From NCBI GenBank assembly GCA_017938435.1, contig JAGBBO010000006.1:72945-136944 (forward strand): 64,000 nucleotides of DNA. Direction: 5' to 3'. The notes under the pieces were generated by a model, which saw nothing but the letters and a program-made list of their open reading frames with translations, ran no database searches and was not told the DNA's origin. The translations under genes were made by a program, and so were the position numbers. This DNA comes from Alphaproteobacteria bacterium (GTDB lineage Bacteria; Pseudomonadota; Alphaproteobacteria; Rs-D84; CACZYB01). Shown in pieces: positions 32,673 to 50,510 of the stretch (position 1 is its first letter; each line of letters begins with the position of its first letter).

Positions 32673-33974
32673 TTATTTTATTCTCGTTATACTATGATTA
32701 AAATAGCAATTATTTCTCCCAGAACCGACTTTTAAAACATTATTATCAAAGTTATATGTATATACTTCGCTAATAGGAATATAATTACCTTTATATTTAA
32801 CATACGGTCCACTATACTGACAAGAGCATTTATTACCACAAGAACAAAGACTACTAAAGCCGAAAAATGAATCAATACCGTTTGTATTTGTTGCGTCACA
32901 ATCTAATAATACTTCTTTTGTCTTAGTATAAATATTAGTTGCGAAGGCATTATACCCATAGATTTTATATTGTTCATATGGGGTACCATCACCAGTTCCA
33001 GTCTCAAACGCATATATATGTTTATCATCAAGTGTAATATAACAATTATTGTTATGTTTAAAGTATCCGCTATTGCAACTCCAACTACAGCCAGAATCTG
33101 AACTCCAACTTGAATTACTTGGTTTTGAACAACTGGTGCAGGTTCCGTTTGTTGACGCAGAGCAATAAGTATGTCCTGAACAAGACATTTTTTTTGATTC
33201 TGTTGTTGTTGACGCATTTCCAGTTGATGATGTAGAACCTGCTTTTGTGCAATAACTTGTCACACTTCTTGTTACCGTTCCACAATTTCCACTCCATGTT
33301 CCATAACTTGTTGAAGAACAAGAACTACAACTACTTGCACTACCAGTGGAATAAGTTCCGGCAGAGCAACTTGTGCAACTTGTATTTCCAGCACTGGATT
33401 TATAAGAACCAGCTGCACAGGCAGAACAAGAACCATTACTATGAGCATAACCAGCCCTACAATGCCAACCACATCCAGATGATGAAGTCCAACTTGAACC
33501 ACTTGGTTTTGAACAGGATATACAGGTTCCATTTGTTGATGCAGAGCAATAAGCATGTCCTGAACAAGACATAGTTTTTGATTCTGTTGTTGTTGACGAA
33601 TTTCCAGTTGATGATGTAGAACCTGCTTTTGTGCAATAACTTGTCACATTTCTTGTTACCGTTCCACAATTTCCACCCCATGCTCCATAACTTGTTGAAG
33701 AACAATAACCGCAACTTGATGCTCCACCAGTGGAATATCTTCCAATCGCACATTTTGTGCAACTTGAGGAACCAGCACTTGATGCATATGTTCCAGCCGC
33801 ACAACTTGTGCAACTTGATGCACCGGCATAGGCATAAGTTCCAGCAGAACACTTATTACAGTTTGTTCCATCACCCCATGTGCCGGCTGGGCAAGCCTCA
33901 CACACATATGTTGTGGCAAGGGCTGGGGTTGGTATAAAAGCTAAACTTACTATTGATAAATTTCTTAATCTCAT
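32673..33974 (-). CDS. Exported cysteine-rich repeat protein (GCC2/GCC3-like)
   Basis: A 433-residue secreted protein: signal peptide cleaved near ALA-TTY (residue 20), then many short C-x2-C-x-A-G-T-Y modules (CSAGTYAYAGASSCTSC and similar), like the ephrin-receptor/GCC2_GCC3 modules of eukaryotic and host-associated bacterial surface proteins. A 128-residue unit is repeated in tandem, with nearly identical DNA at 384-bp spacing (33151 and 33535 are equivalent points). The last 115 residues form a different Tyr/Asn-rich domain with further cysteines. Probably cell-surface and disulfide-bonded. AAGGAGG precedes the ATG; it follows a small exported gene. Confidence 0.75.
   Translation of the reverse strand: MRLRNLSIVSLAFIPTPALATTYVCEACPAGTWGDGTNCNKCSAGTYAYAGASSCTSCAAGTYASSAGSSSCTKCAIGRYSTGGASSCGYCSSTSYGAWGGNCGTVTRNVTSYCTKAGSTSSTGNSSTTTESKTMSCSGHAYCSASTNGTCISCSKPSGSSWTSSSGCGWHCRAGYAHSNGSCSACAAGSYKSSAGNTSCTSCSAGTYSTGSASSCSSCSSTSYGTWSGNCGTVTRSVTSYCTKAGSTSSTGNASTTTESKKMSCSGHTYCSASTNGTCTSCSKPSNSSWSSDSGCSWSCNSGYFKHNNNCYITLDDKHIYAFETGTGDGTPYEQYKIYGYNAFATNIYTKTKEVLLDCDATNTNGIDSFFGFSSLCSCGNKCSCQYSGPYVKYKGNYIPISEVYTYNFDNNVLKVGSGRNNCYFNHSITRIK
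32769..33974 (-). other. Note: repeat-bearing part is Gly/Ser/Cys/Thr-rich and generates long antisense frames
   Basis: Several long open frames on both strands across 32.9-33.9 kb are by-products of the repetitive codons and are not annotated as genes. Confidence 0.5.
33151..33918 (-). repeat. 384-bp in-frame tandem duplication inside the cysteine-rich gene
   Basis: The two copies share long identical runs, for example around GATGATGTAGAACCTGC and CTTGTTACCGTTCCACAA, offset by exactly 384 bases (128 codons). Differences are scattered single bases, so the duplication is fairly recent but not fresh. Outer edges are approximate. Confidence 0.75.
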
Positions 33975-33984
33975 TTTTTCCTCC

Positions 33985-34311
33985 TTAATTCTTTCTATTT
34001 ATTGGGTGTGCTTTGTAGCCCTTTGGACAACTTGGTTTTACTACTGCCCGAGTCCCCTTTGGGCATACAACTTTGCAACGTCTTAAACTTGGATCGTATT
34101 GCATATATTTTGTATCGTCGGCGTGGCAACCACAGGCTGAACCAGATTGGAAATAACCTTCAAATTCGGTTCCACAAACTTTTGTTCCATCGACATAATC
34201 ATTTGGTTTTGGCACACAGTATTTGCTAAGTGCATTAGTGATTTGCTCGGTTGTTGCAGAATGGGCGACGCCACCTGACACCAGCAAGGCAATTAGAAGT
34301 AATTTTTTCAT
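33985..34311 (-). CDS. Small exported cysteine-containing protein
   Basis: A 108-residue protein with a signal peptide cleaved near AHS-ATT (residue 18-20). Paired cysteines (KYCVPKP, KVCGTEFEG, SACGCHAD, RCKVVCPKGT, PSCPKGY) suggest disulfides, as in its downstream partner. GGAGGGAGA precedes the ATG. It lies 10 bases before the cysteine-rich repeat gene and is probably co-transcribed. No family recognised. Confidence 0.65.
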   Translation of the reverse strand: MKKLLLIALLVSGGVAHSATTEQITNALSKYCVPKPNDYVDGTKVCGTEFEGYFQSGSACGCHADDTKYMQYDPSLRRCKVVCPKGTRAVVKPSCPKGYKAHPINRKN

Positions 34312-34608
34312 TCTCCCTCCATAATTTTGTTCTTTGGTTTTTGTTGACTTTGCTTTTTCCCTTTACCTTTGCCTCCTTTTAAAGAGGGAGGGCGGAAAAA
34401 CTACGAAAATCCGCCCATGGTAGGACGAAGTATAAATATGGAAACTTCGCCCATAAGGGGGGTAAGTCGCTATGAGAAGCTTACCCACAAAGTGGAATGT
34501 TAAACCAATTAAAAACACTCCTTACATTTTGCCCCAAAACGCATACGCGAAATTGTTGCAAAAGTGCAACGCTAAATGCGGGGAGTTAGTAAATCATAAA
34601 ACAGAATG

Positions 34609-34637
34609 ATCTCCTTGATCTTTAAGGAGATATTTTT
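34609..34637 (+). terminator. Terminator-like hairpin in the structured region
   Basis: ATCTCCTT (34609-34616) and AAGGAGAT (34624-34631) followed by ATTTTT on the plus strand. Confidence 0.5.
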
Positions 34638-34771
34638 CATTGTTATAGTCCCCTCTGAACATTCATCAAGGACTCCCCACTTTTTCAAGTAGGCAATCAG
34701 ACATAATATAGCTTTATATTATGTTCCGCTGTTTTCAAGGACTTACTACGGTCCCGTATCACTTAGGTGAC

Positions 34772-37297: not shown

Positions 37298-37303
37298 GTT
37301 TCT

Positions 37304-37390
37304 GAGGTTTGACGGACAACCTTTATAATCAAACTGGTCAGGTTCGGAAGAAAGCAGCCAAGGTTGTGATAGTTGGGTCGTCAATACCTC
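37304..37390 (+). ncRNA. ffs: Signal recognition particle RNA (4.5S, small bacterial type)
   Basis: About 87 nt. The conserved apical loop is present (GGTCAGGTTCGGAAGAAAGC, then AGCCAAGG), and the ends GAGGT...TGACG and CGTCA...ACCTC pair. It binds Ffh to target membrane proteins to the inner membrane. The 3' end abuts the convergent DUF3126 gene. Confidence 0.95.
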
Positions 37391-37391
37391 G

Positions 37392-37601
37392 TTATTCCAA
37401 ATCTATATCAATAATTGACATATTAAAATCATAAGATATTTCACCTTCATCTTCGTCACGATAGATTGTTCCGATGAATTCAGATGCAATATAAACCTCT
37501 GCCATATCAGCATCGGATTTACTTAATTTCAAATTTATATCTTGATTACCAAATTTATTTCTTAGGTATGATGTTAATTTTAAGAGGTCTTGTTGTATCA
37601 T
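37392..37601 (-). CDS. DUF3126 family protein
   Basis: A 69-residue protein that matches DUF3126 over its full length: YLRNKFGN near the front, AEVYIASEFIGTIYRDEDEG in the middle and a final SIIDIDLE. The family is found in alphaproteobacteria and has no known function. AAGGAGATTATT precedes the ATG. Confidence 0.9.
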   Translation of the reverse strand: MIQQDLLKLTSYLRNKFGNQDINLKLSKSDADMAEVYIASEFIGTIYRDEDEGEISYDFNMSIIDIDLE

Positions 37602-49538: not shown

Positions 49539-49979
49539 TTATAATAGTATCGCGCTGTAATAAATGTCTTTTATTATAATGACTGTATTTTTTGGATTTG
49601 GGACTATAATCCATCGAAGTTTGTTTTCGTTTTTGCTAATAAAATATACTGAACCAAAATTAAATATTTTGCCAATTAGATTTTGTTTATATAAAACTTT
49701 GGACCAGTCGGAAAAATCTAAGAATACTATTTTTTTATAAAAAATACCTTTTTCAAAAATTATATTTTTTGTGGTAAAAAAATAATTAAATGATTTGAAA
49801 TACAAAGAAATTATCACTATTGCAAACAACGATAAAATTAAAAAAATGACATTTAAAAATGAAAGATTTGCAAGCAAATATATAGCCAAAGCGATGAAAA
49901 TCGACCAAAGTATAATGTAAAGTTTAGTCGAAATTTTACGCGACAATAAAATATGTGTATCATCAAAATATTTTTCCAT
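49539..49979 (-). CDS. Membrane protein with bacterial PH-like (DUF304-type) domain
   Basis: A 146-residue protein with two adjacent membrane segments (about residues 19-60) followed by a domain starting YFFTTKNIIFEKGIFYKK and containing VLYKQNLIGKIFNFGSVYFIS, the pattern of bacterial PH-like domains (strand with K-x-x-L/I-x-R/K-I-F-x-F-G-x-V). ATG at 49979 is preceded by AAAGGGG. Its start is only 14 bases after the terminator of the structured RNA upstream, so that RNA may control it. Function unknown. Confidence 0.7.
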   Translation of the reverse strand: MEKYFDDTHILLSRKISTKLYIILWSIFIALAIYLLANLSFLNVIFLILSLFAIVIISLYFKSFNYFFTTKNIIFEKGIFYKKIVFLDFSDWSKVLYKQNLIGKIFNFGSVYFISKNENKLRWIIVPNPKNTVIIIKDIYYSAILL

Positions 49980-49992
49980 TTTATTCCCCTTT

Positions 49993-50025
49993 AAAAAAAC
50001 AACCACTTTATATCCAAAGTGGTTG
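49993..50025 (-). terminator. Strong terminator of the structured RNA
   Basis: Perfect 10-bp stem CAACCACTTT/AAAGTGGTTG (50000-50009 and 50016-50025) with a 6-base loop, followed on the minus strand by seven T. Confidence 0.9.
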
Positions 50026-50165
50026 GGGTCTGAGAAATGTCAAAATACTACAAAATGACCATTGGCAAACGCCAACACCCCAACCATTGTTGGGTTTGTA
50101 GTATTTCTACGAGTTTCTCAGGCTCGAATCCTCTCGGATATAAGATTTAGTTTTAACCAAATCTG
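49993..50165 (-). ncRNA. Compact structured RNA: stand-alone small RNA or regulated 5' leader
   Basis: About 173 nt between a near-consensus promoter and a strong terminator. Stems (plus coordinates): TTATATCC/GGATATAA (50008-50015 with 50136-50143), CTGAGAAA/TTTCTCAG (50030-50037 with 50114-50121), a 12-bp helix (50043-50054 with 50095-50106), and two apical hairpins (50062-50075 and 50079-50094). The terminator stem reuses bases of the first helix, and CCCCAACCA (50078-50086) is fully complementary to TGGTTGGGG (50020-50028), so two folds exclude each other. The 3' end lies against the ribosome site of the PH-domain gene. It does not match TPP, SAM-II or cobalamin riboswitch motifs known to me; 6S RNA remains possible. 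Confidence 0.6.
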
Positions 50166-50171
50166 GGATGG

Positions 50172-50200
50172 ATTTTAGCATAATAAAAAAACTCTGTCAA
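50172..50200 (-). promoter_or_regulatory. Strong sigma-70-type promoter of the structured RNA
   Basis: On the minus strand: perfect TTGACA (50200-50195), 17-base spacer, TAAAAT (50177-50172). Predicted start near 50165. Confidence 0.75.
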
Positions 50201-50264: not shown

Positions 50265-50510
50265 TTACAAATTTATTTTGCTTAAAATATCATTGATGAC
50301 ATCGACTGAATTTTTATTTAAAATTTGACATATTTTCAAAAATTCTAAAACATCTAATTTTCTATCGTTACTTTCATATTTACTAATAAAATATTGTTGG
50401 ACTTTTAATTTTTTTGCTAAATCTATTTGAGTAACCTTAGCCTCAGACCTTAAATGTTTCATTATTTTTGCAAAAATTTCATAATCTTTTATCTGTATTA
50501 CTTTGCTCAT
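50265..50510 (-). CDS. Small XRE-family helix-turn-helix regulator
   Basis: An 81-residue protein that is nearly all HTH_3 domain: KHLRSEAKVTQIDLAKKLKV, then QYFISKYESNDRKLDVLEF. AAGGAG precedes the ATG. Its size resembles stand-alone antitoxins or minimal phage-type repressors, but no toxin gene adjoins it. Confidence 0.8.
   Translation of the reverse strand: MSKVIQIKDYEIFAKIMKHLRSEAKVTQIDLAKKLKVQQYFISKYESNDRKLDVLEFLKICQILNKNSVDVINDILSKINL

Follow-up and report, generated by a model that had tools for sequence, protein, structure and literature searches.

A conserved, terminator-equipped leader RNA of gut Alphaproteobacteria is a divergent relative of sRNA-Xcc1 and most likely acts in the manner of C4 antisense RNA

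Two described systems come closest to the RNA reported here. One is C4, an antisense RNA known from phage P1, whose logic recurs in multicopy Acinetobacter relatives that are processed at a GGW motif (PMC5320573); the same logic and GGW processing are described in PMC12197685. The second is sRNA-Xcc1 (RF02221), an 88-nt RNA seen as a single band near 100 nt (PMC2996969). In the integrons of Xanthomonas it precedes symE (PMC12444791), and Xylella has seven copies of it, five of them in a row (PMC12189769).

The window, by which we mean the whole 64,000-nt stretch of alphaproteobacterial DNA analyzed, carries a leader RNA on its minus strand, and its features are collected in Table 1. The original prediction had proposed a minus-strand RNA of about 173 nt that runs from a near-consensus promoter (TTGACA-17-TAAAAT) to a perfect 10-bp terminator set against a ribosome site. 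All of this held: the promoter is the best match of the region (11/12), the 173-nt RNA is strongly folded, with a folding energy of -64.0 kcal/mol (z -6.96, with 0 of 200 shuffles equal to it), and the T7 of the terminator is followed by the Shine-Dalgarno sequence and the ATG at 49979. Six terminator-like sites were found as against 0.3 in shuffles. The proposed long helices and apical hairpins were recovered as well, the 8-bp P3, the 12-bp P4 and the apical hairpins all being part of the minimum-free-energy (MFE) structure; that structure does not contain the opposing 14-nt internal loops. Two further bPH_2 genes elsewhere carry the same leader RNA (copies L176 and L225). Directly upstream of the RNA promoter stands a small gene of the HTH class, which has its own terminator (50265-50510, minus strand), and HTH genes also stand behind several leader copies elsewhere. 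A bacterial small SRP RNA lies at 37301-37396 on the plus strand.

Table 1. Features of the leader RNA and its surroundings in the window
Feature	Position	Strand	Basis or remark
sigma-70-type promoter TTGACA-17-TAAAAT	50172..50200	-	11/12 to consensus; TTGACA 50200-50195, 17-nt spacer, TAAAAT 50177-50172
Precursor leader RNA, ~173 nt	49993..50165	-	5' end inferred from promoter
5' hairpin AGATTTGGTTAAAACTAAATCT	50143..50164	-	folding; local to window copy
P1 hairpin ATCC-GAGA-GGAT	50128..50139	-	covaries, at an unchanged position, in relatives G002 and G004
5' block, P2 CGAG/CTCG, putative decoy for antisense	50110..50126	-	predicted pairing; P2 loop contains CTGAGAAA (50121-50114), the 5' strand of P3
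P4 5' strand AAATACTACAAA, putative variable specificity decoy (a1-like)	50095..50106	-	P4 permutation test
P5 CCCAAC/GTTGGG	50079..50094	-	folding; competes with P7
P7 5' strand GGTTGGGGT	50077..50085	-	covariation, folding; GGT at 50085, candidate GGW processing site
P6 hairpin TTGGC-GTTT-GCCAA	50062..50075	-	folding
P8 GTCA/TGAC, putative variable antisense loop	50039..50059	-	covariation, folding; loop contains TTTGTAGTATTT (50054-50043), the P4 3' strand
P3 3' strand TTTCTCAG, putative second antisense segment	50030..50037	-	single-stranded in mature fold
P7 3' strand ACCCCAACC	50021..50029	-	covariation, folding
Intrinsic terminator, perfect 10-bp stem and T7	49993..50025	-	terminator search; stem CAACCACTTT/AAAGTGGTTG at 50025-50016 / 50009-50000
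Shine-Dalgarno AAAGGGGA	49985..49992	-	GGGG-type; such sites enriched in leader genes
bPH_2 domain membrane protein gene, candidate target next door	49539..49979	-	ATG at 49979
Second leader copy	34578..34755	-	R2 match 34578-34680; 5' block 34755-34731; P7 34680-34673 / 34585-34578
Signal-peptide and Cys-rich (Ephrin_rec_like) surface protein genes behind second copy	32673..34311	-	gene annotation

When searched at the DNA level, two further genomes of the genus proved to carry copies, and another family of the order gave a match to a fragment; the neighbor genes differ among these relatives, and the RNA is just 5' of a gene on the same strand. We then used two covariance models, R1 for the 3' half and R2, a broader model of 37 sequences that includes the terminator. 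Of 200 genomes of the order (gut Alphaproteobacteria of the Rs-D84/Enterousia type), 189 had an R2 match. Where the matches bear names, these are of Alphaproteobacteria from guts and termites, Candidatus Enterousia among them; the genomes of this lineage are reduced, and a partner-dependent life has been proposed for it (PMC12306168). Laxer settings gave 8 copies in the genome to which the window belongs, 36 and 59 in two genomes of ~1 Mb, and the second copy within the window (Table 1). Outside the order, 28 of ~381 sampled genomes of the class matched at E <= 1e-4, many of them multicopy and spread over many other alphaproteobacterial families, and in a sample of the phylum the matches were confined to genomes of the same class. 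Single matches in genomes of 2-6 Mb still keep P3, P4, and P8 with different letters. Single copies were also seen on a viral contig (L226) and in two records labeled as other taxa, Endomicrobiia MS502-22 (L161) and HyVt-418 (L193), owing either to transfer or to misassigned contigs. R2 also detects a second subtype, R3, to which ~24 of the ~38 copies in a complete Enterousia genome belong; it carries GGTCAGGAGG/CCTCCTGACC (L112-L117; G027), and a few of its copies have a P5 strand that is perfectly complementary to the ribosome site over up to 14 nt. We regard this many-copy leader family as previously unrecognized, with the reservation that the RNA Biology paper on sRNA-Xcc1 or the 224-motif paper may hold an earlier description.

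The original prediction had also raised a 6S-like mimic of an open promoter, and the length and long rod of the RNA would fit a 6S RNA overlooked by Rfam. Against this, RF00013 is absent from 21 genomes (the window's own and 20 relatives) with a positive Caulobacter control, the RNA is present in many copies per genome, and there is no central bubble, which leaves the 6S explanation with next to no probability. Likewise rejected was tmRNA, which lies elsewhere in the same genome.

The copies follow one layout: promoter, P1, 5' block (consensus TTCGGGG..TTAGAAAAGCCC), P4 strand, variable hairpins, and P5 strand in the 5' part, followed in the 3' part by the P7 5' strand, P6, P8 with the P4' loop, P3', the P7 3' strand, usually a terminator, the Shine-Dalgarno sequence, and ATG. 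A -10-like box is directly 5' of P1 at a constant position in most relatives, and the 5' block was located from sequence alone where pairing predicts it in 76/77 copies. Complementarity of each strand to its own partner, compared with permuted partners over 82 copies, gave z values (which ignore kinship among the copies) of 21.5 for P3, 37.2 for P4, 10.5 for P7, 4.2 for P8, and 2.5 for P5. P4 is very variable, with the own partner among the top 5% for 81 of the 82 copies, and P7 shows exchanges of C-G/U-A, G-C/A-U, and U-A/A-U among copies. Covariation among the homologs is strong, in agreement with the proposal of a new structured leader RNA, and the 9-base complement TGGTTGGGG/CCCCAACCA that had been pointed out in the window is real, being the conserved and covarying helix P7. 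The other alternative pairing proposed, GGATATAA/TTATATCC, occurs in the window and is not retained by G002 and G004, the two relatives from the genus, and it is therefore probably due to chance.

In the MFE structure of the precursor P7 is missing from 81/82 copies and the rod P3+P4+P5 is favored, whereas the 3' half alone folds with P7/P6/P8 in 82/82, the window copy included; the mutually exclusive folds are thus conserved, as had been foreseen for P7 and the terminator base it overlaps. For the window RNA the free fold at -64.0 kcal/mol compares with -49.2 kcal/mol when P7 is forced, and the last 3-4 bases of P7 double as the base of the terminator stem in the consensus of the copies (AACC in the window). 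The modeled picture that recurs is of a precursor folded as the rod and a 3' half that, on its own, would form a closed three-stem RNA with two antisense loops exposed. Such competition could also be used by a new class of transcription attenuator or riboswitch devoid of antisense action, where a ligand or protein would pick P3/P4/P5 or P2/P8/P7, P5 serving as anti-antiterminator and P7 as an antiterminator that sequesters the base of the terminator stem. The P7 3' end (ACC) is that base throughout the consensus, P5 complementarity is kept in 56/82 copies, the rod beats the P7 fold by ~8 kcal/mol in 75/77, the P6 internal loop is conserved, and one RNA class precedes many co-functional genes, all of which agree with an attenuator. 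However, the P4 loop is highly variable among copies of one genome, which is odd for a shared ligand site, the window copy is without the conserved P6 loop (TATAnAACAGG/AAAG in most copies), and the sRNA-Xcc1 relatives show mimicry of the ribosome site with no obvious T-run; we consider this explanation unlikely, albeit one to be taken seriously. Rfam riboswitch families gave no match at gathering cut-offs, and a leader-peptide attenuator was discarded because no upstream ORF is found at a constant place. Of the terminator/antiterminator switch first proposed, the fold competition at the terminator base stands, and the anatomy has a better explanation than a metabolite riboswitch.

As regards known families, the window copy has no match in Rfam, so that the significant match named beforehand as a refutation did not occur. 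Its scan returned nothing for RF02221 or RF01695 (C4) at any E up to 10, and relaxed scans of the window copy and its relatives gave no covariance-model match to RF01695. Other members matched RF02221 in the right place and topology in the relaxed scan (34.4 bits, E 2.5e-4 on 501 nt), and G014 gave 39.7 bits, the gathering cut-off of 53 bits being reached by no alphaproteobacterial copy scored; in the reciprocal search, R2 and R3 detected 4-5 of 25 RF02221 loci. The RF02221 closing stem, which encloses two hairpins and an anti-Shine-Dalgarno strand, is present in the alphaproteobacterial RNA, and the 25 RF02221 loci that we read (L300-L324) carry the same 5' block upstream of the Rfam match. 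Judged by these sequences, the Rfam model covers the 3' half of the element only and misses its 5' half, and the 3' half of the window's family is a remote homolog of sRNA-Xcc1 below the Rfam cut-off. Many of the 25 loci have a start codon 25-40 nt downstream, they are without an obvious T-run, and the genes behind them include Bro-N, KilA-N, P22_AR_N, Rha, and SymE, a kind of gene that is under C4 control. An integron attC element (hairpin plus accessory genes) was also considered as an identity and set aside, the GTT core not being kept.

The ribosome sites behind RF02221 loci often repeat the 5' block, e.g., CCGAAAACCCCACCAAACAGCGG vs. CCCCGAAAAGGAGCAAACAGCCATG (similarity z 7.0), and antisense pairing with the ribosome site reaches z 6.7-7.4 there against 0.3 in the control. 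C4 follows the same logic. Since the nearest known family thus repeats the decoy at its ribosome site, we prefer an antisense leader to a metabolite riboswitch. In the alphaproteobacterial set the antisense pairs with its own ribosome site at z 5.1 (controls 1.2-1.9), a modest signal owed in part to GGGG/CCCC: a GGGG-type Shine-Dalgarno sequence is found in 30/54 leader genes vs. 58/269 (p 1e-6) and is complementary to the CCCC of the P7 3' strand, in the window as elsewhere. The antisense-ribosome site energy of the window copy is better than 98.8% of shuffles and 72% of the sites of other genes; as it beats only 72% of the latter, the target of this single copy is suggested, not shown. Pairing is in sum strong in the sRNA-Xcc1 relatives, weaker in Alphaproteobacteria, and suggestive for the window copy. 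A small RNA that acts in trans, its place before genes being incidental, would suit the independent promoter and terminator, and sRNA-Xcc1 is so described in a title cited in PMC12444791; yet the start codon follows 19-22 nt past the T-run copy after copy (interquartile range, complete genome), and the antisense fits its own ribosome site better than others, so we think it improbable.

The window RNA is a real conserved leader, a divergent relative of sRNA-Xcc1 equipped with a terminator, and its mode of action is most likely that of C4 antisense RNA; a C4-type antisense leader with a built-in terminator is the best explanation of the family and, in our judgment, a reasonably probable one. The C4 arrangement, with decoys (a1/b1) upstream of antisense segments (a'/b') in one transcript, is present in the family. 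The RNA's own promoter would give a precursor in which, from sequence, covariation, and folding, P4', P3', and P7' are held by the 5'-block decoy, yielding the stable rod and the terminator. If the 5' part were removed or unpaired, the 3' half would refold to the closed P7/P6/P8 form, which leaves P4' exposed as a hairpin loop and P3' exposed as a single strand. By analogy with C4 (GGW; PMC5320573) and sRNA-Xcc1, processing may occur at the GG that starts P7, where the mature antisense RNA is predicted to begin. P4', P3', and the CCCC of P7' would then pair with the downstream gene at its ribosome site and so prevent its translation. The terminator would stop most transcripts as small RNA, so that the gene would be expressed from read-through and kept low.

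Signal-peptide-like products are encoded behind 47/66 copies vs. 170/678 background genes (odds ratio 7.4, with a crude predictor), and in one genome behind 19/29 vs. 228/1,002. The downstream families comprise polymorphic outer-membrane repeats, YadA anchors, porins, glycosyltransferases, DNA methylases, HTH proteins, and three bPH_2 proteins including that of the window. The second window copy stands 250-270 nt before its surface protein genes, and a paralog of the gene behind it follows at least three other copies in the same genome (L106, L107, L109). Divergent pairs of copies ~1 kb apart (L047, L048) were also seen before Cys-rich secreted protein genes. Conceivably, and we offer this as a tentative proposal, a phage-type antisense switch was amplified in these reduced-genome, partner-dependent gut Alphaproteobacteria into a genome-wide layer of control, in which dozens of surface-protein genes each have a private leader and specificity loop. 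If so, the set of surface proteins on display would be chosen post-transcriptionally. In this order of tiny-genome gut bacteria, the leaders that precede genes for secreted and surface proteins number up to dozens. The findings link the orphan Xanthomonas sRNA family RF02221 to C4-type antisense control, and a testable hypothesis is provided for surface regulation in uncultured, partner-dependent bacteria.

In comparison with known systems, the family shares with attenuating riboswitches a terminator that has bases in common with an alternative helix, and differs from them in that the strands that switch are an antisense segment and the decoy for it. Like sRNA-Xcc1, it has the closing stem, P6 with an AUAxAA internal loop, P8, the anti-Shine-Dalgarno strand, the same 5' block, and a place just before the start codon; unlike sRNA-Xcc1, which accompanies antirepressor and SymE genes, the alphaproteobacterial RNAs have an intrinsic terminator, many copies, and a sub-cut-off score, and precede surface-protein genes. 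From C4 it departs by the mirrored order of variable and conserved target segments and by the terminator of the alphaproteobacterial branch. With C4 of P1 and P7 and the Acinetobacter group 1 sRNAs (PMC5320573) it has in common the leader transcript, the upstream decoy, and multicopy presence in the chromosome, as well as a predicted three-stem mature RNA starting with GG(W), whose loops in C4 face the ribosome site of the antirepressor.
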